Positions 28,526 through 41,121 of a DNA stretch of 48,797 bases are shown one piece after another. The stretch spans positions 1 to 48,797 of the forward strand of contig JALEHU010000126.1 in the NCBI GenBank assembly GCA_022770365.1. Reading direction: 5' to 3'. Source of the stretch: Blautia sp. (GTDB lineage: Bacteria > Bacillota > Clostridia > Lachnospirales > Lachnospiraceae). A program made the translations under genes and the position numbers. A model generated the notes under the pieces. That model did not search any database. It saw nothing but the letters and a program-made list of their open reading frames with translations, and had not been told where the DNA came from. The first letter of the stretch is position 1, and each line of letters starts with the position of its first letter.

Positions 28526-28554
28526 TTTACAGCGCAAAAGAATGGTGATATAAT
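28526..28554 (+). promoter_or_regulatory. Promoter of the mannoside-type operon
   Basis: TTTACA and TATAAT are 17 bases apart, with a TG before the -10 box (extended -10). The start codon is about 150 bases further on, which gives a long leader. The 28322-28703 gap also holds the terminator above and the inverted repeats below. Confidence 0.75.
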
Positions 28555-28674: not shown

Positions 28675-28703
28675 AAAAGTATATCTTAAAAAGGAGAATG
28701 GAT

Positions 28704-29996
28704 ATGAAAGCAAAAAAAATGATGGCATTATTGATGAGCGCTGCCTGTGTTACTTCTATGTGTGCCGGTGCATTTACCGTAGAGGCGGCTGAATCGACAG
28801 GAGAGGTTTTACACATGATGACTTATGTTGATCCTCAGTCGAATGACCCTGCTCAGGAAAAAATCTATGAGGTTTATGAGAAATTTACCGAAGATACCGG
28901 TATCGAGATCGAATATGAGATCGTACCATGGGATGAGTCCGAATCAAAGCTGGTTATTGCCAACCAGTCAGGAGCTGCTCCTGACATCGCACTGGTCAGC
29001 TCACAGAAACTGGCTTCCCTGGTGAATGCAGGTGCGCTTCAGCCGATGGATGAGTACATTGACAGAGACCTTAACAGAGACGACTTTGTGGAGGCTGTAT
29101 GGAATGCAGGAACTTACTCCGGAGACGGACAGGTATACTGTATGCTTTCCTCAGCACACACCAGAGGTATCTGGTATAACAAGAACTATGTATCAGATGA
29201 AGAAGCTCCGGAGACATGGGATGAAGTTGTTGAAGTAGCTAAGAAAGCTATGGCAGAGAATGAAGGCATTTACGGCTTCGGCTTCTGGGGAGGTTCTCAT
29301 TATGCAGCAGTTGAGCTGACGATTGGACCTCTGACCTGGGCAGGCGATGGACAGTTATCCAATCCGGAAGACGGATCTGCAGCATGGGCAAATCAGGAAG
29401 TGGCAGACGCTATCCAGTTTATGTCCGATTGCTACAATGTGCATAAGATCACACCGGAAATCTGTATGAATGTTTCCGATTACAGTACAGATGTAACTCA
29501 GCAGTTTGCGGCAGGCAACATCGCAATGATTCTTGACGGTTCCTACATCAAATCCAGACTGGAAGCATCTGATAACGCAGGTAATTTTGGATTCGTTCCG
29601 TATCCGGCTAAGACCGAAGGCGGTTCTCATCCTCACTTCTCCAATGGATGGGCATGGGGTATTCCGAGAAATGCAGAGAATCCTGATCTGGCATGGGAAT
29701 TCATCAAGTGGTTCAGCCAGACCGATATCCAGGTTCAGCACTCTTTAGTTGAGGGTGGTCTGCCTATCGTGAAAGCAGCAGCAGATGATCCTGCATTCAG
29801 TGATGAGCTTAGCCCGCTGTTCTTTGACAACCTTCAGTACGGCAGAAGCATGGATCCGTGGCTGTATTATCAGGAAGCACAGGAAACACTGGCAATCGCA
29901 GGTGCTACCTACTGTCTGGATCCTGAAAAACAGGATTTGAATGCTCTCCTGCAGGAATCACAGGATCAGTTTAATGATCAGTACTACAGTGAATAA
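28704..29996 (+). CDS. Carbohydrate ABC transporter substrate-binding protein, second operon
   Basis: This is a 430-aa family 1 sugar-binding protein. The second of two in-frame ATG codons is chosen, because AAGGAG touches the first. The signal peptide is MKAKK followed by a hydrophobic core. Cysteines at 15 and 21 do not sit in a clean lipobox, and a type I cleavage near TVEAAE looks at least as good. The mature part has the usual TYVDPQSND start, an EIEYEIVPWDESESK segment and the WAWGIPRNAENPDLAWEFI hinge motif. The following permeases, GH38 mannosidase and mannose-type isomerase suggest the ligand is an alpha-mannoside or a mannose-containing oligosaccharide. A strong terminator after it should make it the most abundant product of the operon. 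Confidence 0.9.
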   Translation: MKAKKMMALLMSAACVTSMCAGAFTVEAAESTGEVLHMMTYVDPQSNDPAQEKIYEVYEKFTEDTGIEIEYEIVPWDESESKLVIANQSGAAPDIALVSSQKLASLVNAGALQPMDEYIDRDLNRDDFVEAVWNAGTYSGDGQVYCMLSSAHTRGIWYNKNYVSDEEAPETWDEVVEVAKKAMAENEGIYGFGFWGGSHYAAVELTIGPLTWAGDGQLSNPEDGSAAWANQEVADAIQFMSDCYNVHKITPEICMNVSDYSTDVTQQFAAGNIAMILDGSYIKSRLEASDNAGNFGFVPYPAKTEGGSHPHFSNGWAWGIPRNAENPDLAWEFIKWFSQTDIQVQHSLVEGGLPIVKAAADDPAFSDELSPLFFDNLQYGRSMDPWLYYQEAQETLAIAGATYCLDPEKQDLNALLQESQDQFNDQYYSE

Positions 29997-30009
29997 GAAT
30001 TAGGGGATG

Positions 30010-30055
30010 TTGTGGGACATTTCCATGCTCCATGGAAATGTCCCACAATTTTTTT
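30010..30055 (+). terminator. Strong hairpin terminator or attenuator after the second binding protein
   Basis: A perfect 18-bp stem with a 3-base loop is followed by T7. The permeases downstream have no clear promoter of their own, so partial read-through is likely. Confidence 0.85.
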
Positions 30056-30121
30056 GCTTTTATTGTACCAAAAACCCATTGTAAATACCTTTGAAACCAT
30101 GGGAAAGGAGGAAAATATTAT

Positions 30122-31003
30122 ATGTTCCATACAAAGAAAACATCGAAGCTGCCCTATTTCCTTGTGGCTCCGGTAATGATTTTACTGCTCTTATTTTCCT
30201 ATCTGCCGTTTCCATATACATTATATTTGTCTGTAAATGAAACGAAGCCGATTACAGGAGAACTGCAGTTTGTAGGCATCAAAAATTTCAAACGGCTTTT
30301 CCGAAACAAAGATTTCTGGGAAAGCCTGGGAAACACAGGTTATTATGTGATTGTTACTACCATACTGGTGATCGTACTGGGTGTGATCGTAGCCCTGATC
30401 CTTAACAGTAAGATTAAGGGAACCAGTGTTTATATGTCTATTTTATTTGTTCCCTGGATCGTGTCGGACGTAGTTGCCGGTTTCTGTTGGAAATGGCTGT
30501 TAAATCCGGATTTCGGTCTTCTGAATGCCCTTTTTGAACCTTTTGGCATCCGAGCGAGCAATTTGCTTATGAAGCCGCAGTACGCCATGCTGAGTCTGAT
30601 CATGGTAACGGTATGGAAGCAATTGGCGTATTCTACCATTCTTCTTCTGGCGGGACTTCAGAACGTTTCCAACGATCTGATAGAAGCGTCGAAGCTGGAC
30701 GGATGTAATGGCTGGCAGTCTTTCTGGAGAATCACATTCCCTATCTTCAGCCCGATTTTACTTGTAACGGTGCTTCTGGATATGATCAACTTTATCAGTC
30801 AGTCCGGACTTGCGCTGGTGCTGACAGGCGGCGGCCCTTTGAGAAGTACGACAACGCTGGCGTTATATCTGTACGATGAAGCCTTTGATAACTTCAAGCT
30901 GACCAATGCCTCTACAATCTCCATGATGATGGCGCTTCTTAATATTGTCGTTGTTTGTTTATACTTTTATACCAATAAAAAGAGCAGAGAGAAGGTGGAC
31001 TGA
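30122..31003 (+). CDS. Sugar ABC transporter permease, second operon, first subunit
   Basis: This is a 293-aa MalF-type permease with about six membrane helices. The ATG follows AAAGGAGG by about ten bases. The first helix is YFLVAPVMILLLLFSYLPF. The EAA loop is EASKLDGCNGWQSFWRITFP, near residue 190, and the TGGGP motif follows before the last helices. As in the first operon, no ATPase gene accompanies the permeases, so a shared ATPase is expected. The stop codon overlaps the next start by one base (TGATG). Confidence 0.9.
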   Translation: MFHTKKTSKLPYFLVAPVMILLLLFSYLPFPYTLYLSVNETKPITGELQFVGIKNFKRLFRNKDFWESLGNTGYYVIVTTILVIVLGVIVALILNSKIKGTSVYMSILFVPWIVSDVVAGFCWKWLLNPDFGLLNALFEPFGIRASNLLMKPQYAMLSLIMVTVWKQLAYSTILLLAGLQNVSNDLIEASKLDGCNGWQSFWRITFPIFSPILLVTVLLDMINFISQSGLALVLTGGGPLRSTTTLALYLYDEAFDNFKLTNASTISMMMALLNIVVVCLYFYTNKKSREKVD

Positions 31004-31842
31004 TGAGACGGGGAAGTGCAAGAAAAATGGCAATAGGAGCAGGAAAGCATCTCATTATGGTGCTGGTTTCCATGTTCATGCTGCTCCCCCTTGTGTGGGG
31101 ACTGATAACCTCTTTTAAACCCCAGAGTGAGATCTTCAAATATCCGCCGAAATTTTTTACGGGACTGACTCTGGAAAATTATATTCAGGCGTTCCAGAGA
31201 GAAGGTCTGGGACGATATCTTGTGACGACCATCGCATTGGCTGTGATTTCTACAGTTATCGGAATCCTGTTTGCGACTTTTGCGGCTTACATTTTTTCAC
31301 GGTATTCATTCCGGGGAAAACTTTTCTGCACCACTTTTGTAGTGCTGCCTATGCTGATTCCGGGTCTTGTGAACCTGATTCCTTTGTTCAGTGTGTATTC
31401 CAGAATGGGTTTGAGAGATAACTTTATTGGACTGGTACTGTTGTATTTGCCCGGTATTATGCCATTTTCCATTATGGTACTTCAGAATTATCTGCGGGCG
31501 GTGCCGTTTACGCTGGAGGAAGCTGCAATGATTGACGGCTGCAGCCGGTGGCAGATTCTCACGAAGATTATTCTGCCGGTGATCGTTCCCGGCGTTATCG
31601 CAGTAGCTATGATTGGATTCGTAAATATCTGGAATGAGTTTATTATCACCTTGATCTTTACATCAGGCCGTGGGCTGCGTACTGTAACGCTGTCTCTGTT
31701 CTACATGGTGAATGCGAATAATGTGAATTACGGTGTCGTCTGTGCGGTGGCCTTTGTCAATATTATTCCGGTATTGATTATTTTCTTAATTTTCCGGAAG
31801 CAGTTTATCGGCTCTATGATCGATGGAGCAATCAAAGGATAG
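31003..31842 (+). CDS. Sugar ABC transporter permease, second operon, second subunit
   Basis: This is a 279-aa MalG-type permease with about six membrane helices. It starts in a TGATG overlap with the previous gene, so the two are translationally coupled. The EAA loop reads EAAMIDGCSRWQILTKIILP, and the C-terminus ends SMIDGAIKG, as expected for the subfamily. Together with the preceding subunit it should form the channel for the sugar bound by the protein encoded at 28704. The next gene, a URO-D-like protein, begins 12 bases after its stop, so transport and catabolism are cotranscribed. Confidence 0.9.
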   Translation: MRRGSARKMAIGAGKHLIMVLVSMFMLLPLVWGLITSFKPQSEIFKYPPKFFTGLTLENYIQAFQREGLGRYLVTTIALAVISTVIGILFATFAAYIFSRYSFRGKLFCTTFVVLPMLIPGLVNLIPLFSVYSRMGLRDNFIGLVLLYLPGIMPFSIMVLQNYLRAVPFTLEEAAMIDGCSRWQILTKIILPVIVPGVIAVAMIGFVNIWNEFIITLIFTSGRGLRTVTLSLFYMVNANNVNYGVVCAVAFVNIIPVLIIFLIFRKQFIGSMIDGAIKG

Positions 31843-31854
31843 GAGGAAATGCAA

Positions 31855-32952
31855 ATGACAGGAAGAGAACGTCTTTTGGCTGCTCTGGATCGGAAATGTC
31901 CGGACCGGCTGCCTGCAACAACTCATCATTTGATGGATTATTTTCTGAATACCTATATGGGCGGAACCGATAAGCAGACTTTTTTCCGGGAGATGGGACT
32001 GGATCCGATTTTCTGGGTAGATGATCTGATTTATACGGAAGAACAGCAGGAAAACTGGCGTATTGAGAAGGAAGAGCTCAGTGATCCTCAGTACCGCACC
32101 ATCCGCTATACCATACACACACCGGTAAAACCGCTGACGATGGTGCTTCAGTACAATCAATACACTCAGTGGCTGAAAGAACACCTATTAAAAGACAAAA
32201 AAGACATTGAAATCCTCGCACGGTATATGCCAAGCCCAAGAGCCGGACGGGAAACCGTGAACCGGGCGGCAAGTGAACACCCGGATTGCCTGATTCGCGG
32301 TACAGTGCCCTGCTTTGATATCTTTGGACAACCGGGATGCTGGCAGGATCTGGCCTGTATCTATGGCATCCAGGATTTGATCATGGAGACTTTCGATGAT
32401 CCGGAATGGGTGAAGGAAGCTCTTCAGATTTTACAGAAGAGGAAACTGGACTATATCGACACACTTGATGGATGTAAGTATGATATTCTTGAACTGGGAG
32501 GCGGTGATGCGTCTACCACCGTTATTTCCCCCGCAATTTTTGATGAGTTTGTAGCGCCCTTTGACGCACCTGTTGTTTCAGCTGTACAGAAAAAAGGAAT
32601 CCGTGTGGTATATCATACCTGCGGCGGTATGATGCCTATCCTGGAAAATATTGCAGATCTGGGTGTAAACGCGATGGAGACCTTTACCCCTGTAAATATG
32701 GGCGGAGATACGAATCTTGCGGAAGCAAAACAGAGAATCGGCAGCAGAGTCTGCATGATCGGCGGTTTTGACCAGTTCCATTATTTCACGGGATGTACGC
32801 CGGAAGATACCAGAAAGATGGTAAGACAGTGCTTTGAGGAAGCCGGAGAAGGCGGAGGCTTTATTCTTTCTCCGTCGGATCACTTCTTTGACGCGGATCC
32901 GGAACTGATTCGTGCTTTTGCGGACGAGGCGGCTCGTTGTATTTATAAATAA
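31855..32952 (+). CDS. Uroporphyrinogen-decarboxylase/MtaA-like protein, first copy
   Basis: This 365-aa protein has the URO-D fold also used by cobalamin- and zinc-dependent methyltransferases (MtaA, MtbA). The second of two close ATG codons is chosen because it lies eight bases after AGGAGG. It opens with MTGRERLLAALDRK, the usual URO-D-like start. H254 and C256, in VVYHTCGGMMPIL, match the His-x-Cys zinc motif of the methyltransferases. The later position where those have a Cys reads SPSDHFF here. Residues for porphyrinogen decarboxylation are not evident, and no haem gene is nearby. It lies between the sugar permeases and the alpha-mannosidase, so a role in sugar metabolism is likely. Removal of a methyl group is one guess. 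The reaction is unknown. Confidence 0.8.
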   Translation: MTGRERLLAALDRKCPDRLPATTHHLMDYFLNTYMGGTDKQTFFREMGLDPIFWVDDLIYTEEQQENWRIEKEELSDPQYRTIRYTIHTPVKPLTMVLQYNQYTQWLKEHLLKDKKDIEILARYMPSPRAGRETVNRAASEHPDCLIRGTVPCFDIFGQPGCWQDLACIYGIQDLIMETFDDPEWVKEALQILQKRKLDYIDTLDGCKYDILELGGGDASTTVISPAIFDEFVAPFDAPVVSAVQKKGIRVVYHTCGGMMPILENIADLGVNAMETFTPVNMGGDTNLAEAKQRIGSRVCMIGGFDQFHYFTGCTPEDTRKMVRQCFEEAGEGGGFILSPSDHFFDADPELIRAFADEAARCIYK

Positions 32953-32982
32953 AGAAGAGACATAAGGAGGCTCTTTGCGTAA

Positions 32983-35802
32983 ATGGAAAAATATCTGGAA
33001 ATGAAGAGAAAAGCAAATAACCATTATTGGGCACAGAGAATTCTTACCCAGATGGGATATTTGTACAAGGTGATGGAGGCTGAGGAGAGAGCGGTTCCCG
33101 ATCAGCTGAACGATACAGAAAACTGGCTGTATGAAGAGTACAAAAGAGATGGCAGTATCACAGAAACTGTGGCAAAGAAAGCGGAAGAAATGCTGAAAGG
33201 TCTGGAAAAAGATGCAAAGCGTTACAGCATGATCTTTGCCGGACATGCGCACATTGATATGAACTGGATGTGGGGATTTCAGGAGACCGTAAACCTGACG
33301 ATCGATACATTCCAGACGATGCTGAATTTGATGGAGGAATACCCGGAATTCACGTTCTCTCAGTCTCAGGCATCTGTATACGAGATTATTGAAAAATACT
33401 GTCCTTCTATGCTCCCGGAGATTCGCAGAAGAGTACAGGAGGGAAGATGGGAAGTGACAGCTTCCACCTGGGTAGAGCCGGATAAAAATATGAGCGGAAC
33501 AGAAAGTATGTCCCGTCATATCCTGTATACGAAGACTTATTTGTCTGATCTGCTTGGAATCTCTCCTGATTCCATCGAACTGGATTTTGAGCCGGATACA
33601 TTTGGACACAGTGAATGTATACCGGAAATCCTGAACCAGGGCGGTGTAAAATATTATTATCACTGCCGCGGATTTGAAAAGTATACTCTGTACCGTTGGC
33701 GTGCTCCTTCGGGGAAAGAGGTGCTTGTAAACCGGGATAATGCCTGGTATCTGGGCCCGGTGGAGTATGACAGAGTGCTCCGGCTGCCTCAGTACAGCAA
33801 AGAGAATCACTGTGATGTTCTGCTGTATGTGTACGGAGTAGGTGATCACGGCGGCGGACCTACCAGGCGTGATATTGAGAAGATCATAGATATGAAGCAA
33901 TGGCCGTTTATGCCCAATATTCGTTTCGGTACGTTCCATGAATTCTTCCATGAGATTGAGAAAGTAAAAGAAAACTTCCCGGTTGTGGACAGTGAGCTGA
34001 ACTTTGTTCTGACCGGGTGTTATACCACCCAGAGCAGAATCAAGCTGGCGAACCGGACCGGAGAGGATAAGCTGTACGATGCAGAAGCTCTCTGGGCGGC
34101 AAGCGGTGTTCCTGATGAAATGGCAAATCAGGGAAAGAAAGCTTTTGAGCAGGCATGGAGAAAGATACTGTTTAATCAGTTCCACGATATTCTTCCGGGT
34201 TCTGGTGTGATTGAGACAAGAGAATATGCGATGGGACAGTTCCAGCAGGCAATGTCATACTGCGGCGGTTATGCCAATCGTGCTATGAAGGCTATCAGCG
34301 AGAAGATTGACACCACTTTGTGGGGCGGCGAGGACTGTGCGGATTCCCGCTCGGAAGGAGCCGGCGTGGGATACGGCACCGGTATTACATCCGGACAGTG
34401 GGGGAATGCAGGAAGCAATGATTTTGGATTTACCAATGCTCACAGAGGAAACGGTGATACCCGTGTATATACGCTGTTTAACACCACACAATACGAGCGG
34501 AAAGAGCTTGCGGTTGTTACCTTGTGGGATTGGGAGTATCCGGAAGAGGAGATTTCCGTTCTCAATAAGGATATGGAAGAACTTCCTGTGCAGATTCTGG
34601 AGCAGGGGACTCATTACTGGCAGCATCAATATATTAAGCTGGCATTCCCGGCTTCCGTGCCGGCCTTTGGATATAATACTTACTGTGTCAGGAGAAAACC
34701 GCTGACATCTGAGATTATACCTCCATTTACAGATCCGCGTGTACACAGGATGGAAGATGGTCTTATCACTCTTGAAAATGATGAGATATGCGGAAAATTT
34801 GACTCAGAGACTATGAAGCTGGTTTCTCTGGTCAATAAGAGAACCGGCGAGGAGTTTATAAAAGAGCCCTCAGGTTACTTCCGTTTTGTGGAGGAAGACG
34901 ATGTAAATGCCATGACTGCATGGATTGTGGGCGGTTATACAAAGGTTGTTGATATTAATGAAACCGTTCCGGTGCGCGTGATTGACCGGCATCAGGATGG
35001 ACTGCGCAAATGGCTGACCTACGAGATGAAATTCCGCGAATCCTCTCTGAATGTGAAGATTATTCTGGATGAAGGCAGCAAGATCTTCCGTTTCGAGGTG
35101 AATGCGGACTGGCATGAAATTGGAAGAAAGGGTAAGACCATTCCTCAGCTTCAGTTCTATGCTCCGGTTGGATATGAAGTAAAGAATTATCTTTACGATA
35201 TTCCGGCAGGCAGCAAGGAGCGGGGAGAGCTTGGACACGATGTTCCCGGTATTTATTTCCAGGCGGCTGTTCCTGAAGAGGACAGAGGCTGCATGATGCT
35301 TACGACAAACTGCAAATATGGTTACAGGGGGGTCGGTCAGGCAATGACAATAGATCTTATCAGAGGTGCTTATGACCCTGATCCTTATCCGGAGCTGGGC
35401 ATTCATGTGATGAATTTAGGTCTTGGCATCCAGGAAAAGGCAGAGTGGGGCAAGCTGTTGGAAGCAGGGTATCTGTTCTCACATTTCCTGTATCCTTATT
35501 CCAATACTATTCACAAAGGTGAGGCAGCAGCAGAACACAGTTTCATGAAAGTTGAAGGAGATGTAAAGATTGCTGCATGGAAGCTGGGCGAAGCGGACAA
35601 TACCTGGGTGATAAGAATGTATCATAGCCATAAGAGGTCAGAGCAGGTTAAAATTACGGCAGAAAGAGCCATCGTCAGAGCGGAATTTACAGATCTTCTG
35701 GAACGTCCGCAGGGTGATCAGACCGTGAATGTTAATGCAGATGGCAGCGTGAAATTTGAGCTTCCGGCATGCAGTATTCGTACAATAAAATTAGCCTTTT
35801 AA
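32983..35802 (+). CDS. Alpha-mannosidase, glycoside hydrolase family 38
   Basis: This 939-aa enzyme of family GH38 hydrolyses alpha-linked mannose with retention, using a zinc ion. The ATG follows AAGGAGG by 12 bases. There is no signal peptide, so it acts in the cytoplasm on imported substrate. The catalytic domain holds the zinc motif GHAHIDMNW (H88, D92) and the nucleophile D205 in FEPDTFGHS. Another expected zinc ligand is in NQFHDILPGSG. The rest is the usual long beta-sandwich C-terminal region (about 490-939). The length is within the bacterial range. Two URO-D-like genes flank it at close spacing, forming one transcript with the transporter. The linkage specificity is not readable from the sequence. 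Confidence 0.92.
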   Translation: MEKYLEMKRKANNHYWAQRILTQMGYLYKVMEAEERAVPDQLNDTENWLYEEYKRDGSITETVAKKAEEMLKGLEKDAKRYSMIFAGHAHIDMNWMWGFQETVNLTIDTFQTMLNLMEEYPEFTFSQSQASVYEIIEKYCPSMLPEIRRRVQEGRWEVTASTWVEPDKNMSGTESMSRHILYTKTYLSDLLGISPDSIELDFEPDTFGHSECIPEILNQGGVKYYYHCRGFEKYTLYRWRAPSGKEVLVNRDNAWYLGPVEYDRVLRLPQYSKENHCDVLLYVYGVGDHGGGPTRRDIEKIIDMKQWPFMPNIRFGTFHEFFHEIEKVKENFPVVDSELNFVLTGCYTTQSRIKLANRTGEDKLYDAEALWAASGVPDEMANQGKKAFEQAWRKILFNQFHDILPGSGVIETREYAMGQFQQAMSYCGGYANRAMKAISEKIDTTLWGGEDCADSRSEGAGVGYGTGITSGQWGNAGSNDFGFTNAHRGNGDTRVYTLFNTTQYERKELAVVTLWDWEYPEEEISVLNKDMEELPVQILEQGTHYWQHQYIKLAFPASVPAFGYNTYCVRRKPLTSEIIPPFTDPRVHRMEDGLITLENDEICGKFDSETMKLVSLVNKRTGEEFIKEPSGYFRFVEEDDVNAMTAWIVGGYTKVVDINETVPVRVIDRHQDGLRKWLTYEMKFRESSLNVKIILDEGSKIFRFEVNADWHEIGRKGKTIPQLQFYAPVGYEVKNYLYDIPAGSKERGELGHDVPGIYFQAAVPEEDRGCMMLTTNCKYGYRGVGQAMTIDLIRGAYDPDPYPELGIHVMNLGLGIQEKAEWGKLLEAGYLFSHFLYPYSNTIHKGEAAAEHSFMKVEGDVKIAAWKLGEADNTWVIRMYHSHKRSEQVKITAERAIVRAEFTDLLERPQGDQTVNVNADGSVKFELPACSIRTIKLAF

Positions 35803-35824
35803 GGGGTAAAGGGAGGTGCTCAAT

Positions 35825-36925
35825 ATGCAGAGCAGAGAGCTGGTAAATCGGACGATTGCCAGAAAAAATACCGGTACGCATGCCTTCTGGGTAGGGCATC
35901 CCACCGATGATGCAAAAGAGATTTACTATCAGGCGGTAGGTATTAAAGAAGAAGAGGCTACAGAGCAGGAGATTCAAAATGATATCGCCAGCAAGACCAA
36001 GCATTATACCACGAAATCCGGAAAACCGGAGATAGATTTCAATCTGAAGATCGGTTCTGATATGACCTGGATCAGTCCGGAGCTGGATCTGGGAGCGTGG
36101 AGACATCCGGAAGGAAAACCCATGTGGGACTGCTTTACGGATGAACATAAAAGCTTAAATACCGGATGTATCTTTGCGGAATGTGAAGATGTGGAGGAGA
36201 TTGAACGCTTCCCATGGCCGAATCCGGACTATCTTGACTTTACCAAGTGTCTGGAAGATACAAAATATGCTTATGATAAAGGTCTGGCTGTATTTGGCGG
36301 AATGTGGTGTCCTTTTTTCCATGTGATGTGCGATTTCTTTGGAATGGAAAATTATTTTATCAAGATGTATACGGACCCGGAGGTGATCCATGCGGCTACC
36401 AGAAAAATCGTTGATTTTTATCTTGTGACCAACGGACGTTATCTGGACGCTGCGGCTCCGTATTTAAGCGCGGCATTTTTTGGAAATGATCTGGGCAGTC
36501 AGTTAAGCCTTCTGATCAGTCCGGAGATCTTTGATGAATTTATCCTGCCTTATATGCAGGAGATTATCGACCAGATCAAAGGGAAGGGCCTGAAAGTGGC
36601 AATGCATTCCTGCGGCTCTATCGATATGATCATCCCCAGACTTCTGGATGCCGGTGTGGATATCCTTCATCCTTTGCAGGCCAAGGCTGTAGGAATGGAT
36701 GCGGAGAATCTTGCGAAAAAGTATGGCGGAAAAGTCACTTTTTTAGGCGGTGTGGATACTCAGCAGCTTCTTCCTTTTGGAACACCGGAACAGGTGAAGG
36801 AAGAAGTAAGAAGACTGAAAGACCTCTTCAAGGGAGACTTTATTGTATCACCCAGCCATGAAGCTCTTCTGCCGAATGTTCCCTTTGAGAATGTAATGGC
36901 TATGAGTGAGGCTGCGAAGGAATAA
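35825..36925 (+). CDS. Uroporphyrinogen-decarboxylase/MtaA-like protein, second copy
   Basis: This 366-aa protein is a second, clearly divergent member of the URO-D/MtaA superfamily. The ATG lies eight bases after GGGAGG; a GTG nine bases upstream falls within that site. The His-x-Cys motif is present in VAMHSCGSIDMI (H261, C263). The later motif reads SPSHEALLPN, parallel to SPSDHFF in the first copy. The barrel end has FLGGVDTQQLLPFG. It follows the alpha-mannosidase by 22 bases and precedes the sugar isomerase. Two members in one sugar operon suggest consecutive steps or a heteromer. No corrinoid protein, the usual partner of MtaA-type enzymes, is present. Function is unknown. Confidence 0.8.
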   Translation: MQSRELVNRTIARKNTGTHAFWVGHPTDDAKEIYYQAVGIKEEEATEQEIQNDIASKTKHYTTKSGKPEIDFNLKIGSDMTWISPELDLGAWRHPEGKPMWDCFTDEHKSLNTGCIFAECEDVEEIERFPWPNPDYLDFTKCLEDTKYAYDKGLAVFGGMWCPFFHVMCDFFGMENYFIKMYTDPEVIHAATRKIVDFYLVTNGRYLDAAAPYLSAAFFGNDLGSQLSLLISPEIFDEFILPYMQEIIDQIKGKGLKVAMHSCGSIDMIIPRLLDAGVDILHPLQAKAVGMDAENLAKKYGGKVTFLGGVDTQQLLPFGTPEQVKEEVRRLKDLFKGDFIVSPSHEALLPNVPFENVMAMSEAAKE

Positions 36926-36966
36926 GCGGAAGCCGGGCAATATGTGAGGAGTAAACAGGAGATAGT

Positions 36967-37653
36967 ATGAAAAGATCTGAAATTAATCAAATTATAAAAG
37001 ATGCTCTGATTTTTTTTGAAGAGCAAAACGCAAAGATTCCGCCTTTCGTTCTTTGGACGCCTGATGAATGGAAGAACAAAGGGGACGAAGCAGGAGAAAT
37101 CCGTGATAATATGCTTGGATGGGACATTACAGATTACGGACAGGGTGATTTTAATAAAGTCGGACTGCTGCTGGTAACATTAAGAAACGGGAATCAGCAG
37201 AGAACTGATATTTATCCGAAACCATATGCAGAAAAACTGATGATTGTCCGCGAGGAACAGGTTACACCTATGCATTATCATACATATAAAATGGAAGATA
37301 TCATTAACCGGGGCGGCGGAAATCTGGTTGTAAAATTATACAATTCCACGGAAGATGGAAGTCTTGCGGATACCAGCGTCCATGTTTCCATGGATGGAGT
37401 GGCGCATGTATATCCGGCTGGAACGGAGCTGATCCTTCATCCGGGAGAAAGCATTACGATGACTCAGGGATTATATCATCGTTTCTGGGGCGAAAAGGGA
37501 AAAGGAACGGTTCTGGTTGGTGAAGTTTCCATGTGCAATGATGATAATGCCGACAATCATTTTTATGATACTGTCGGAAGATTTCCTGAAATTGAAGAAG
37601 ACGAAGAGCCCTTATATCTTCTGTGCAATGAATATCCTGATCCGGTAAAATAA
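36967..37653 (+). CDS. D-lyxose / D-mannose isomerase, cupin type
   Basis: This 228-aa protein resembles D-lyxose ketol-isomerases, Mn-dependent cupin enzymes that interconvert D-lyxose with D-xylulose and D-mannose with D-fructose. Expected metal ligands are H103, H105, E110 (in TPMHYHTYKMEDIINRGGGN) and H171 (GLYHRFWGE). The start ATG has only a modest AGGAGATAGT site. The length and end match the family. Position after a GH38 mannosidase makes free mannose the likely substrate, giving fructose for the kinase downstream. Lyxose cannot be excluded. It is probably the last gene of the transport/hydrolysis transcript before the regulator. Confidence 0.85.
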   Translation: MKRSEINQIIKDALIFFEEQNAKIPPFVLWTPDEWKNKGDEAGEIRDNMLGWDITDYGQGDFNKVGLLLVTLRNGNQQRTDIYPKPYAEKLMIVREEQVTPMHYHTYKMEDIINRGGGNLVVKLYNSTEDGSLADTSVHVSMDGVAHVYPAGTELILHPGESITMTQGLYHRFWGEKGKGTVLVGEVSMCNDDNADNHFYDTVGRFPEIEEDEEPLYLLCNEYPDPVK

Positions 37654-37767: not shown

Positions 37768-38988
37768 ATGAAAAACAGAATTAATAGCAGAGTCATGAGG
37801 GAGAATAATGCCCTTTTGATTATGGAAATCATCATGAAACTCGGTCCGATATCGAGAAGCGAACTGACGCAGTTAGTAGGACTGACGCAAGTGTCAGTCA
37901 TTAACATTACGAACGAACTGCTGGAAGCGGGAATTCTTGAACAGGTTGGTATGACAAATGGATCCGCCCAGGGGCGTAAAGCGATTGTGCTGGATGTAAA
38001 CCCAAAGCGTTTTTATAGTTTATGTCTGGTTCTCAGAGTGGAGGAAATGGTATGCGGGATATCGGATCTTCGGGGGAATATTCTGGATACCATCAGAATT
38101 GAATATCCTGCAAGGCTGTCATCAGGAGAACTTCTGGATGAAGTGGAACGTATGATAGAAGAATTACTGTGCAGAAGTGAGATATCCAGAGAGAAAATAC
38201 TTGGATTGGGGATTGCTGCTCCGGGACCTCTGGATGTACAGACAGGAACGATCGTAAACCCTCCTAATTTTCCTTATCTGCAGAATCTTCCAATTAAAGA
38301 AAAGCTGGAAAAACGACTGGGCTTTCCTGTCTGTCTGGATAAAGAAACAAATCTTGCAGCGCTTGCCGAGTATTATTATGGCATGGCTAAAAACTATAAA
38401 ACATCATTTTTTGTCAGCATTTTTAATCTGGGTATTGGCGGAGGACTGATATCCGGCGGTGAAATCTTTCATGGATTCAGAGATGGTGCCGGTGAGATTG
38501 GACATGTAATGGTAGATTCTGCCGGCCCAAAATGCAGATGCGGCAATTACGGTTGTCTTGAAACAATGATATCAGAAGATTATGTGATATCTGAAGTAAA
38601 AAAGATGCTGAAACTTGGAGTGGGTGATATCGTGGTTAATGGTATTGACACGATCACACTAGAAGATGTTTTTGCCAAGAGTCATCTTCCCGGAATGAAC
38701 GTATTTCATACTGCTGTTGATAAAATGGTTTCGTATCTTTCCCAGGCACTGGGAATTATTATTAATCTGTATAGTCCGGAGCTGATTATGATCGGCGGTG
38801 TAATTCCTGATATGGATCCCATGTTTGTGGACCTGGTGGCGGAGAAAGTTCATAAAAGATCATATCCTTCGCACTGTAAAGATGTTGTGATCAGGAAGTC
38901 AGAATTTGGAAAAGATGTTTTTCTTATGGGTGCTGCAGCTCTTGTACAGAAAAAATTTCTGGTGAATGTTCTTCCGCAGAGCCTGTGA
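37768..38988 (+). CDS. ROK family transcriptional repressor (NagC/XylR type)
   Basis: This 406-aa protein has an N-terminal winged helix-turn-helix (about residues 10-70, GPISRSELTQLVGLTQVSVI) fused to a ROK sugar-binding domain. The domain contains LGLGIAAPGPLD, the GIGGGLISGGEIFHG loop, a zinc cluster CRCGNYGCLE and IMIGGVIPDMDP. Such proteins repress sugar operons and release DNA when they bind the sugar or its phosphate. It sits between the isomerase and the kinase/aldolase genes, so it probably controls this locus. The 114-base gap upstream has no clear -35/-10 pair that I would defend and no obvious long palindrome. Confidence 0.88.
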   Translation: MKNRINSRVMRENNALLIMEIIMKLGPISRSELTQLVGLTQVSVINITNELLEAGILEQVGMTNGSAQGRKAIVLDVNPKRFYSLCLVLRVEEMVCGISDLRGNILDTIRIEYPARLSSGELLDEVERMIEELLCRSEISREKILGLGIAAPGPLDVQTGTIVNPPNFPYLQNLPIKEKLEKRLGFPVCLDKETNLAALAEYYYGMAKNYKTSFFVSIFNLGIGGGLISGGEIFHGFRDGAGEIGHVMVDSAGPKCRCGNYGCLETMISEDYVISEVKKMLKLGVGDIVVNGIDTITLEDVFAKSHLPGMNVFHTAVDKMVSYLSQALGIIINLYSPELIMIGGVIPDMDPMFVDLVAEKVHKRSYPSHCKDVVIRKSEFGKDVFLMGAAALVQKKFLVNVLPQSL

Positions 38989-39068: not shown

Positions 39069-40193
39069 TTGAATAAAAAAGTAATTGCAGCAGGACATAT
39101 CTGTCTGGATATTACACCGGTGTTTCATGGAACAAATGTGAACAGGCTGGATGATATTTTATCTCCCGGAAAACTGGTGCATGTAGGTGCACCGGATATT
39201 CATGTGGGAGGATCTGTGTCAAATACGGGACTTGCTATGAAGATTCTCGGAGCAGATGTGTCACTTGCTGGTAAAGTCGGGGATGATGCTTTTGGTATTC
39301 TTGTGAAACAGGCGCTGCAGGAGCAGTATCATGCTGCGGATGGATTAATTATCGGGAGAGGTGAATCAACCTCTTATTCTGTAGTAGTGGCTATACCGGG
39401 GATTGACAGGATTTTTCTGCATAATCCGGGTGCAAATGATACTTTTACAGCAGATGATATTTCCGGGGAAAGCTTAAAGGAAACCGCACTGTTTCATTTC
39501 GGTTATCCGCCTCTGATGAGAAATATGTATCTGAATGAAGGAAGTGAACTGATAAAAGTTTTTGAGAAAGCAAAAGCGCAGGGTGCAGCAACATCATTGG
39601 ATATGGCATCAGTGGATCCGGATTCGCCGGCAGGGAGTGCTGACTGGGAGAAGATTCTTCAAAGAGTACTGCCGTATGTGGACTTTTTTGAACCAAGTGT
39701 GGAAGAGCTGTGTTATATGCTGGATCCCGAACGCTTTGCGGATTGGAAGAAAAGGGCTGATGGCCGGGATGTGACGGAAATTCTGGATATTGACCGGGAT
39801 GTCCGGCCGCTTGCTGATAAGTGTATGGAAATGGGAGCCAGGGTTCTTCTTATTAAGTGCGGGACTCCCGGGATTTATTACCGGACAGCCGGGGAGAACA
39901 GGCTTCGGGAAATCAGTAAGCGGGTCTGCCTGGATTGTGCCGGATGGTCAGACCGGGAAGGCTTTGAGAAAAGCTATATTCCGGATAAAGTTCTGTCGGG
40001 AACCGGTGCCGGAGATACCTGCATAGCTGCTTTTCTGACTGCAATGCTGGATGGCTGTACACTTGAGGAATGTATGCACCTGGCAGCTGCCACCGGCGCA
40101 TCGTGTGTAGCCGCCTATGATGCACTGAGCGGTTTGAAGAGTTTTGAAGATCTCAGGAAAAAAATAAATGACGGATGGAAAAAGATCCAATAA
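39069..40193 (+). CDS. PfkB family carbohydrate kinase
   Basis: This 374-aa ribokinase-fold enzyme phosphorylates a sugar with ATP. Translation must begin at TTG (39069), preceded by GTGAGGTGA. The ATG four bases earlier opens a three-codon frame that ends in a stop overlapping the true start. Family motifs are GGSVSNTGLAMKILGADV near residue 48 and the catalytic anion-hole motif GTGAGDTCIAAFL with D316. It is about 50 residues longer than typical members, with an insertion around 222-245 and another around 285-305. Its place before an aldolase gene suggests it makes the phosphorylated ketose for cleavage. The substrate could be fructose, fructose 1-phosphate, or another ketose. Confidence 0.85.
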   Translation: MNKKVIAAGHICLDITPVFHGTNVNRLDDILSPGKLVHVGAPDIHVGGSVSNTGLAMKILGADVSLAGKVGDDAFGILVKQALQEQYHAADGLIIGRGESTSYSVVVAIPGIDRIFLHNPGANDTFTADDISGESLKETALFHFGYPPLMRNMYLNEGSELIKVFEKAKAQGAATSLDMASVDPDSPAGSADWEKILQRVLPYVDFFEPSVEELCYMLDPERFADWKKRADGRDVTEILDIDRDVRPLADKCMEMGARVLLIKCGTPGIYYRTAGENRLREISKRVCLDCAGWSDREGFEKSYIPDKVLSGTGAGDTCIAAFLTAMLDGCTLEECMHLAAATGASCVAAYDALSGLKSFEDLRKKINDGWKKIQ

Positions 40194-40231: not shown

Positions 40232-40251
40232 AATAAAGGAGAATGGTTGTT

Positions 40252-41121
40252 ATGCTGGTAAACATGAACCAGGTATTGATTCCTGCAAAAAAAGGAAAAT
40301 ATGCAGTAGGTTTATTTAATGCAGTGAACCTTGAACTGGCCAGGGGGATTATTGCTGCTGCAGAATCTTTGCGCTCTCCTGTTATCATGGGGACTGCAGA
40401 AGTTCTTCTGCCTTACGGACCGTTGGAGGAGGTTTCCTATTATCTTCTTCCAATGGCAAAAAAAGCCAGTGTGCCTGTTGTTATTCATTTGGATCATGGC
40501 TTAAAGAAAGAAACCTGTCTGAAAGCTTTGGAACTTGGCTTTTCATCAATTATGTATGACTGTTCCACGGATTCTTATGAGGAGAATGTGGAAAAAGTAA
40601 GAGAAATGGCGGAAATCGCACATTCCTACGGGGCTACGATCGAGGGAGAGCTGGGACATGTGGGAGATACAGATGATAATTCCGGTGATCCGTCAAAGTT
40701 TTATACAGATCCGCTGGTGGCAAAAGATTTTGTGGAGAAAACGGGAGTGGACGCACTTGCGATTGCAGTGGGAACTGCCCATGGTGCCTACAAATTACCG
40801 CCGAAGCTGGATTTTGAAAGAATTCGTACGATTGCCAATACGGTTAATGTCCCGCTGGTACTTCACGGCGGATCCGGACTGACAGACAGCGATTTCAACC
40901 GTGCAATTCATGAAGGAATCAGCAAAGTAAATATTTTTACAGACATCAATGTTGCCGCAGTGGAAGCGGTCAAACAGGAAGCAGAGAAGAAAATGAAACT
41001 GTTTTCCAGCGTCAACAAAGCAAATGAAGTTCTTTCACATGATTCAAAAATGATAACAGATGCAGATGTGCAGAAAATCGTTCAGATGGTGATAGCGGAA
41101 CTCATTAAAAAAAGAAACTGA
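40252..41121 (+). CDS. Class II fructose-bisphosphate aldolase family protein
   Basis: This 289-aa zinc-dependent aldolase of the FbaA/GatY/IolJ family cleaves a ketose bisphosphate or ketose 1-phosphate to dihydroxyacetone phosphate and an aldehyde. The second in-frame ATG is chosen, because AAAGGAG almost touches the first at 40243. D81-H82 in IHLDHG, E133 in EGELGHVGD, H177 in GTAHGAYK and H205 in LHGGSG are the expected catalytic and metal residues. It follows the PfkB kinase and is the last gene before a strong terminator, so it closes the sugar route. Whether it acts on fructose 1,6-bisphosphate, tagatose or another sugar phosphate cannot be told from the sequence. Confidence 0.9.
   Translation: MLVNMNQVLIPAKKGKYAVGLFNAVNLELARGIIAAAESLRSPVIMGTAEVLLPYGPLEEVSYYLLPMAKKASVPVVIHLDHGLKKETCLKALELGFSSIMYDCSTDSYEENVEKVREMAEIAHSYGATIEGELGHVGDTDDNSGDPSKFYTDPLVAKDFVEKTGVDALAIAVGTAHGAYKLPPKLDFERIRTIANTVNVPLVLHGGSGLTDSDFNRAIHEGISKVNIFTDINVAAVEAVKQEAEKKMKLFSSVNKANEVLSHDSKMITDADVQKIVQMVIAELIKKRN

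Follow-up and report, generated by a model that had tools for sequence, protein, structure and literature searches.

Within the UroD superfamily, proteins of the uroporphyrinogen decarboxylase (URO-D) type such as MtvB, OdmB, VdmB, MtoB and CdmB act as methyltransferases I (MT I) which, together with an activating enzyme and a methyltransferase II (MT II), pass a methyl group to a corrinoid protein, and such MT I demethylate methoxylated aromatics or dehalogenate haloalkanes (PMC13222342). According to Kountz and Balskus (PMC10418091), S-methyltransferases of the superfamily use a His-Cys-Cys site, O-methyltransferases replace one or both cysteines by carboxylates or non-coordinating residues, and methyl-sulfur or methyl-selenium compounds are the proposed substrates of type 1 mlp clusters. 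Here, we analysed a sugar operon with two URO-D-like proteins, A and B, on a 48,797 nucleotide contig of a Blautia sp. (GenBank assembly GCA_022770365.1, contig JALEHU010000126.1). This whole stretch, the window in the following, is contig C44 of genome G000, a 3.0 Mb assembly of 130 contigs which is 85% complete; G, L and C numbers designate genomes, loci and contigs as labelled in this analysis.

On the forward strand between positions 28698 and 41121, genes for a solute-binding protein (SBP), two permeases, A, a GH38 alpha-mannosidase, B, a lyxose-isomerase-family protein, a ROK protein, a PfkB kinase and a class II aldolase follow each other with gaps of 125, -1, 6, 30, 13, 41, 114, 80 and 49 bp in operon order. 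A, the URO-D-like protein upstream of GH38 (31849..32952, 367 amino acids), and B, its counterpart downstream (35816..36925, 369 amino acids), are putative corrinoid methyltransferases which exceed the PF01208 cut-off of 23.9 bits with 75.1 and 102.1 bits respectively, with H256, C258 and D344 as candidate site residues of A and H264, C266, H348 and E349 as those of B. The 939 amino acid GH38 protein between them (32983..35802) matches PF01074 with 172.7 bits, and PF09261, PF07748 and PF17677 are also above cut-off, PF21260 being below. The original prediction, made without database searches, had described an importer-A-GH38-B-isomerase array with short gaps; Pfam recovers the same genes in the same order, and the ROK, PfkB and class II aldolase genes extend the array beyond those it listed. 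The reading that we favour, although we see the scales as evenly balanced, is that A and B together carry out the corrinoid-dependent O-demethylation of methylated mannose before its catabolism, in an operon that would import and degrade O-methyl alpha-mannosides, whereby the methyltransferase part of this reading is more secure than the substrate part.

An alignment of A with B (hhalign probability 99.8, 22% identity) shows that the two are related, but in the URO-D tree the 16 A rows and the 26 B rows fall into two distinct clades, each with support 100/99. The tree comprises 76 proteins of 290-470 amino acids which match our own URO-D profile, with identical or contained sequences merged and without short or broken proteins such as two B pieces of L025 and a 198 amino acid piece on contig C43 of G000; it is rooted for display only, has many long terminal branches and carries warnings on several joins. 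The best NCBIfam models for both proteins are MtaA-type methyltransferases, all below threshold, with 57.2 bits for A and 59.7 bits for B against NF040654 (cut-off 400), 55.9 and 66.3 bits against TIGR01463 (cut-off 235.4) and a maximum of 70.7 bits among the MtaA, MtbA and related methyltransferase models, whose cut-offs are at least 235.4. Strict membership of the MtaA/MtbA families was rejected, as the scores stay under the cut-offs and the third ligand is not Cys. An N-terminal M-x-QAGR-Y motif is important for the uroporphyrinogen decarboxylase HemE. The identity of A and B as HemE was also rejected, as the corresponding MRQAGRY stretch of E. coli HemE occurs in 0/42 rows of A and of the B subclades B1 and B2, HemE has F-x-K where A and B carry H-x-C, and TIGR01464 (cut-off 302.95) gives 21.3 bits for B and no match at E 0.001 for A. 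Among PDB entries, methylcobalamin:coenzyme M methyltransferase MtaA (4ay7) is the sole match of A in the sequence search and of B in the profile search, and in the profile search with A a uroporphyrinogen decarboxylase ranks first (4.9e-6) and MtaA second (2.4e-5), as in the sequence search with B, where MtaA is third behind a designed protein; as the searches are split, kinship in the PDB alone cannot decide between the two. Predicted structural models are weak for A (mean predicted local distance difference test score 65, six sequences) and fair for B (84, eight sequences).

In the URO-D alignment His-x-Cys of the presumptive metal site is invariant, in 16/16 A rows and 26/26 B rows, and with numbering from the longest open reading frame His-x-Cys-Gly is found at H256/C258 in A and H264/C266 in B; the motif had been announced at H254/C256 and H261/C263, positions that fit later start codons. 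Correctly predicted, too, was an SPSx motif at the place of the third ligand, with Asp344 (A) or His348 (B) as x, aligned with the third Cys of other family members. This likely third-ligand column is Asp in 16/16 A rows, His followed by Glu in 26/26 B rows and Cys (SPGC or APGC) in 8/34 other rows, including URO-D/thioredoxin proteins. MtaA, which is absent from the alignment and was compared pairwise only, places the Cys of its LAPGC motif opposite Asp344 of A, and in the alignment with the B profile, which is ungapped there, opposite Glu349 rather than His348, so that either His348 or Glu349 may be the third ligand of B. With Asp in A and His in B, the third ligand looks replaced rather than lost, and the invariant columns speak against decayed copies. 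Asp344 of A fits the carboxylate replacement reported for O-methyltransferases in PMC10418091, which a His in B would extend. Zinc is also not universal in such sites, since CdmB is active without zinc (PMC13222342). As a separate observation, in the URO-D/thioredoxin proteins (L035, 5592-6950, and L001) FVCG replaces the H-x-C-G of MtaA with the Cys and the [SA]PGC motif kept, and thus the His ligand seems to be missing.

The pair recurs. A contig scan of named genomes with B as query gave 11 loci, at five of which A and B are adjacent or have only GH38 between them, namely SBP-P1-P2-GH38-A-GH38-B in L024 (P1 and P2 being permeases), A-GH38-B in L025, a metagenome-assembled genome (MAG) in which B is broken, A-B in L026, SBP-P1-P2-A-B in Robinsoniella (L031) and the reverse order B-A with a 4 bp overlap in a Planctomycete MAG (L030); the importer next to the pair is of the same type in L024 and L031. 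A pair private to this strain was therefore rejected, and the survey for GH38 with paired URO-D genes which the original prediction had proposed locates the neighbourhood in other families and one other phylum, which answers its strain-only refutation test. In the order sample of 392 genomes (A searched at E 1e-50, B at E 1e-100), A occurs in five and B in 18 genomes, and 5/5 A genomes also hold B (Fisher 1.1e-7); in the phylum sample of 398 genomes (A searched at E 1e-70) A occurs in five, G000 included. Although the association tests, Fisher as well as GH38 proximity, ignore kinship between genomes and the counts include the same-genus sets G105 with G167 and G199 with G212 and G219, the pairing of A with B is more than chance, given its recurrence together with this co-occurrence. 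The operon is seldom found among members of the window's genus, as the B query (E 1e-60) matched 6/37 members including G000, the other five with 44-45% over part of the sequence, and the A query (E 1e-50) matched G000 only among the seven members in the order sample.

At loci other than the window, Pfam was applied to selected genes only and the remaining neighbours were named by similarity to reference proteins. In L126 of another family GH38-SBP-P1-P2-A lie on one strand, with SBP and permeases assigned by similarity only, and the L039 array consists of a URO-D-like protein, A, GH31, a further URO-D-like protein, GH38, a lyxose-isomerase-family protein and DUF2961, where the two extra URO-D-like proteins have no Pfam match and were assigned by our own profile only. 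Adjacent URO-D-like genes, frequently with strong sequence divergence between the two, were seen in other settings as well (L031, 1-2225; L041, 355-2846; L029, 1550-3745; L125, 13411-15554; L139, 5534-8019). The broken B of L025 (4740-5831) lies in two frames of 124 and 211 amino acids, which is an assembly error or a real break, and in Robinsoniella (L031, 12063-17843) a glycine cleavage set, with GcvT and a GcvP half identified by Pfam, begins 400 bp after A-B.

A mannoside context is indicated by the distribution of GH38, for which expectations near A and B were computed from the GH38 counts per genome. A GH38 gene is found within 10 kb of A at 5/11 loci with 0.26 expected (P 2e-6), two loci being on contigs shorter than 7 kb, and within 10 kb of B in 6/18 genomes with 0.29 expected (P 2e-7). 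All six of the latter belong to subclade B1 (6/11 genomes) and none to B2 (0/6; Fisher 0.037), of which 3/6 genomes are without any GH38. L111 (G398), which carries HSCG and SPSHE and has a B-like look, is overlapped by a longer open reading frame and stands outside the tree and the comparison of 11 B1 with six B2 genomes. Methylated mannose occurs in snail glycans and in some bacterial O-antigens. In mycobacteria, it is a constituent of the 3-O-methylmannose polysaccharide (PMC9883506).

Corrinoid genes accompany relatives of both proteins. In G105 and G167 (L035 and L036) a same-strand array SBP-GH130-A-PocR/AraC-corrinoid-corrinoid-URO-D/thioredoxin-RACo-CobW, with gaps of -14 to 92 bp in L035, was identified by Pfam in L035 and by matching frames in L036; the A relatives are 58 and 57% identical to A of the window, and a B relative about 11 kb from the A array adjoins a sulfatase and is one gene away from GH38. 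In G004 and G005, which belong to the same genus as the window, the genes downstream of a B2 relative encode a pterin-binding protein of the MtrH type and then a corrinoid protein, with gaps of 14 and 146 bp (G004 by Pfam, G005 by similarity). The corrinoid activase RACo is encoded in 17/18 B genomes, being absent from G239, versus 153/374 others (Fisher 4.7e-6), and in at least 4/18 (G037, G243, G105 and G167) its gene is no more than 20 kb away from B. A stand-alone corrinoid protein, defined as an open frame of less than 320 amino acids, is present in 15/18 B genomes, a count which has no order-wide background rate beside it, with none found in G000, G160 and G239, genomes 83-85% complete; four of the five named A-B genomes encode one, and in L031 a corrinoid gene is located 9 kb from B with a transposase in between. 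G425, G427 and G429 have corrinoid protein and RACo together, and 0/9 annotated neighbours, two of them without a family, are methyltransferases, which would fit the use of a corrinoid protein in trans. The sulfatase that adjoins the B relative was identified by Pfam in L121 (12913-14361), with an equal-length frame in L122, and hints at otherwise modified mannans.

The host itself possesses two RACo-type activases, one being AcsV and the other encoded on C43 with PocR and CobW. As C75 carries the carbon monoxide dehydrogenase/acetyl-CoA synthase (CODH/ACS) genes acsBDCE and acsV, G000 is likely an acetogen. PF02607 matches only a 978 amino acid MetH-like frame in this genome, to which PF02310 adds frames of 558 and 501 amino acids, the latter below cut-off. 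On C43 (L044, 21000-36101), genes for RACo, PocR, LacI, CobW, a URO-D/thioredoxin protein and an aldose 1-epimerase are found together with a 198 amino acid URO-D piece which is 36% identical to B; these genes may make up another corrinoid locus with a link to sugars, in which no corrinoid protein was detected.

Taken together, the gene company in other bacteria suggests the removal of methyl groups from methylated mannose. Since kin of UroD-superfamily MT I are encoded here next to a sugar importer and mannosidases, the simplest account would be an O-methylated sugar from which A and B remove the methyl group. The view of the original prediction that corrinoid methyltransferases do not fit a mannoside operon is not supported, since they would fit if the sugar is O-methylated. 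Its suggestion of a methylated mannoside as the substrate of the pair is supported indirectly by the missing HemE motif and score, the MtaA-type best models, the corrinoid, RACo, MtrH and mannosidase neighbours and the recurrence. The PDB searches are mixed in this respect.

Beside the observed gene content, recurrence and ligand columns and the RACo and CODH/ACS genes of the host, we infer metal, substrate, reaction, corrinoid partner, roles of A versus B and downstream route as follows. The importer would take up alpha-mannosides bearing O-methyl ethers, the glycosidic bonds of which GH38 would cleave in the cytoplasm. A and B would be methyltransferases of the UroD-superfamily MT I type, each binding methylated mannose, and two proteins may be required for two methylated forms or positions or two anomers, or may form a heterodimer. 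The ether oxygen would be activated at the metal site, His-Cys-Asp in A and His-Cys-His/Glu in B. A corrinoid protein from another locus, maintained in its active state by RACo, would accept the methyl group at its Co(I); tetrahydrofolate may be the next acceptor, followed in this host by acetyl-CoA. The freed mannose would be converted to fructose by the isomerase and processed onward via the PfkB kinase and the aldolase. A methyl ether on a sugar can prevent its ordinary catabolism, and to our knowledge oxygen-dependent demethylases are not available to anaerobes.

More tentatively, and with doubt prevailing over confidence, an undescribed anaerobic route can be envisaged in which A and B are a sugar-specific pair, corrinoid protein and RACo act in trans from a separate hub, glycan methyl groups feed acetogenesis, and the URO-D-like genes of many other sugar operons are counterparts for other methylated sugars. 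Among the hits listed by searches of an open-licence literature library, no paper dealt with the corrinoid demethylation of sugars or with such a URO-D pair in a sugar operon. If A and B are sugar O-demethylases, they account for a class of genes which carry the annotation 'uroporphyrinogen decarboxylase' in anaerobic sugar operons, show how anaerobes eat methylated glycans and connect the use of glycans with one-carbon metabolism and the production of acetate. With two soluble-looking proteins, this claim is directly testable.

Several observations weigh against the demethylation of methylated mannose by A and B. The main gap is that no stand-alone corrinoid protein was found in the 85% complete genome G000, and the ten operon genes of the window include, by Pfam, neither a corrinoid protein nor a RACo gene, which sets the operon apart from a type 1 mlp cluster, where Mlp2 and Mlp3 are encoded together with a corrinoid protein and a Ram/RACE protein. 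A motif scan detected no corrinoid gene at L024, L025, L026 and L030 (L025 and L026 being short contigs) and the L025 genome gave no PF02607 match; corrinoid genes beside A are confined to one genus, and the MtrH-corrinoid linkage belongs to the sister clade B2 and not to B1. With respect to the sugar, no methylated mannoside is tied to the host of the window, the pairs in L026, L030 and L031 have no GH38 match nearby in the motif scan, in which L026 ends at the contig end, and A-clade genes of G763 and G622, both genomes without GH38, adjoin an L-fucose isomerase, so that mannose is not the sole context. As to the site, His-Cys-His occurs also in 8/34 other URO-D rows, and a His third ligand is therefore not special to B; it is, moreover, outside the replacements quoted from PMC10418091. 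Uroporphyrinogen decarboxylase, finally, tops two of the four PDB searches and MtaA the other two. A and B might instead be corrinoid methyltransferases acting on something other than a methyl ether of mannose, for example a methylated aglycone, lignin-like or phenolic, or another methylated sugar carried on mannosides, as UroD-superfamily MT I of known function act on methoxylated aromatics and haloalkanes (PMC13222342), A-clade genes adjoin L-fucose isomerase in L127 and L128, the B2 loci L046 and L130, the two scanned for an importer, have a ribose-type ABC importer, and the Robinsoniella, L026 and L030 pairs lack a nearby GH38. We nevertheless consider this unlikely, though worth serious thought, since GH38 is enriched near both A and B, GH130 is beside A in L035, A occurs with GH38 and a lyxose-isomerase-family gene in L039, and the importer of the window is of the sugar type. 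The L127 and L128 loci (G763 and G622), where A-clade genes occur with L-fucose isomerase, a ribose-type importer (by Pfam in L127 only) and two more URO-D-like genes, are perhaps a counterpart for a methylated deoxysugar.

That A and B catalyse a corrinoid-independent sugar reaction by a new use of the His-Cys site in the UroD barrel, for instance an epimerisation, a C-C cleavage or a metal-assisted rearrangement, appears improbable to us. In its favour, the search for a stand-alone corrinoid protein in the genome of the window was negative, corrinoid genes are missing next to most A-B loci and the third ligand is Asp or His, unlike the Cys of known S-methyltransferases, but relatives of A share an array with two corrinoid proteins, RACo and CobW, RACo is encoded in nearly all B genomes, and no positive evidence was found for the 'unrecognised sugar reaction' of A and B that the original prediction offered as an alternative. 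A similarly small chance is given to the possibility that the corrinoid genes of L035 and L036 are a separate mlp-like methyl-sulfur cluster with accidental linkage to A: the URO-D/thioredoxin protein of these loci keeps APGC at the third-ligand column and reaches 158.7 bits, below cut-off, against TIGR01463, type 1 mlp clusters are widespread in anaerobes (PMC10418091), and the adjacency is seen in one genus only. In contrast, the corrinoid genes directly continue a same-strand series of SBP, GH130 and A with gaps of 29 to 73 bp, and the RACo association of B genomes is order-wide. Practically negligible is the explanation that the two proteins are uroporphyrinogen decarboxylases or degenerate copies of these without a sugar role; despite the PF01208 match of both and the decarboxylase at the top of half of the PDB searches, it has the missing MRQAGRY, the H-x-C in place of F-x-K, the failing TIGR01464 scores and the invariant columns of both proteins against it.

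The remaining operon features all lie on the forward strand. A promoter-like site, TTTACA-17-TATAAT with TG before the second hexamer (28526..28554; 11/12 consensus matches), is only suggestive, as the scan gave 32 sites versus a mean of 25.3 in shuffles. The SBP (SBP_bac_1, 28698..29996; PF01547, 136.9 bits) of the sugar ABC importer is separated from permease 1 (30122..31003; PF00528, 72.7 bits) and permease 2 (31003..31842; PF00528, 74.1 bits) by a 19-pair hairpin with T-run (30009..30049), possibly an attenuator or mRNA end; the terminator scan overall gave 10 sites versus 10.4 in shuffles, this stem being by far the longest. Its position matches the expectation for an mRNA keeping the SBP in excess. 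Downstream of B follow the D-lyxose/D-mannose isomerase family protein (36967..37653), with 341.9 bits to PF07385 (cut-off 20.8) and 294.3 bits to NF051472, under its cut-off of 350, a NagC/Mlc-like ROK family regulator (37768..38988; PF00480, 178.6 bits; NF047937, 217.3 bits, below cut-off), a PfkB family sugar kinase (39069..40193; PF00294, 88.4 bits), 48% identical over 164 amino acids to a kinase in L046, and a class II fructose-bisphosphate aldolase family protein (40243..41121; PF01116, 292.9 bits).

Compared with described systems, HemE of E. coli shares the Pfam family with A and B, but has no His-x-Cys and possesses the MRQAGRY stretch that they lack. MtaA has the URO-D barrel and an aligned His-x-Cys-Gly in common with both, and differs by its third Cys, replaced by Asp in A and by His (or Glu) in B, by the sugar operon in which A and B are encoded and by its model cut-off of 400 bits, under which both stay far. 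The several URO-D-like proteins with corrinoid protein and activase of type 1 mlp clusters (PMC10418091) recall the arrays of the relatives, whereas in the tree the URO-D/thioredoxin proteins do not cluster with A and B; the main text of that article has no word beginning with sugar, glycos or mannos. MtvB, OdmB, VdmB, MtoB and CdmB, likened here by description and not by sequence, are URO-D-type proteins as well, and the B2 relatives in G004 and G005 adjoin genes for an MtrH-type and a corrinoid protein; the known substrates of these enzymes are methoxylated aromatics or haloalkanes, in contrast to the sugar importer, GH38 and two URO-D proteins of this locus. Fold and general chemistry are already known, whereas a sugar-operon pair with altered ligands was absent from the listed hits of the open-licence literature searches.

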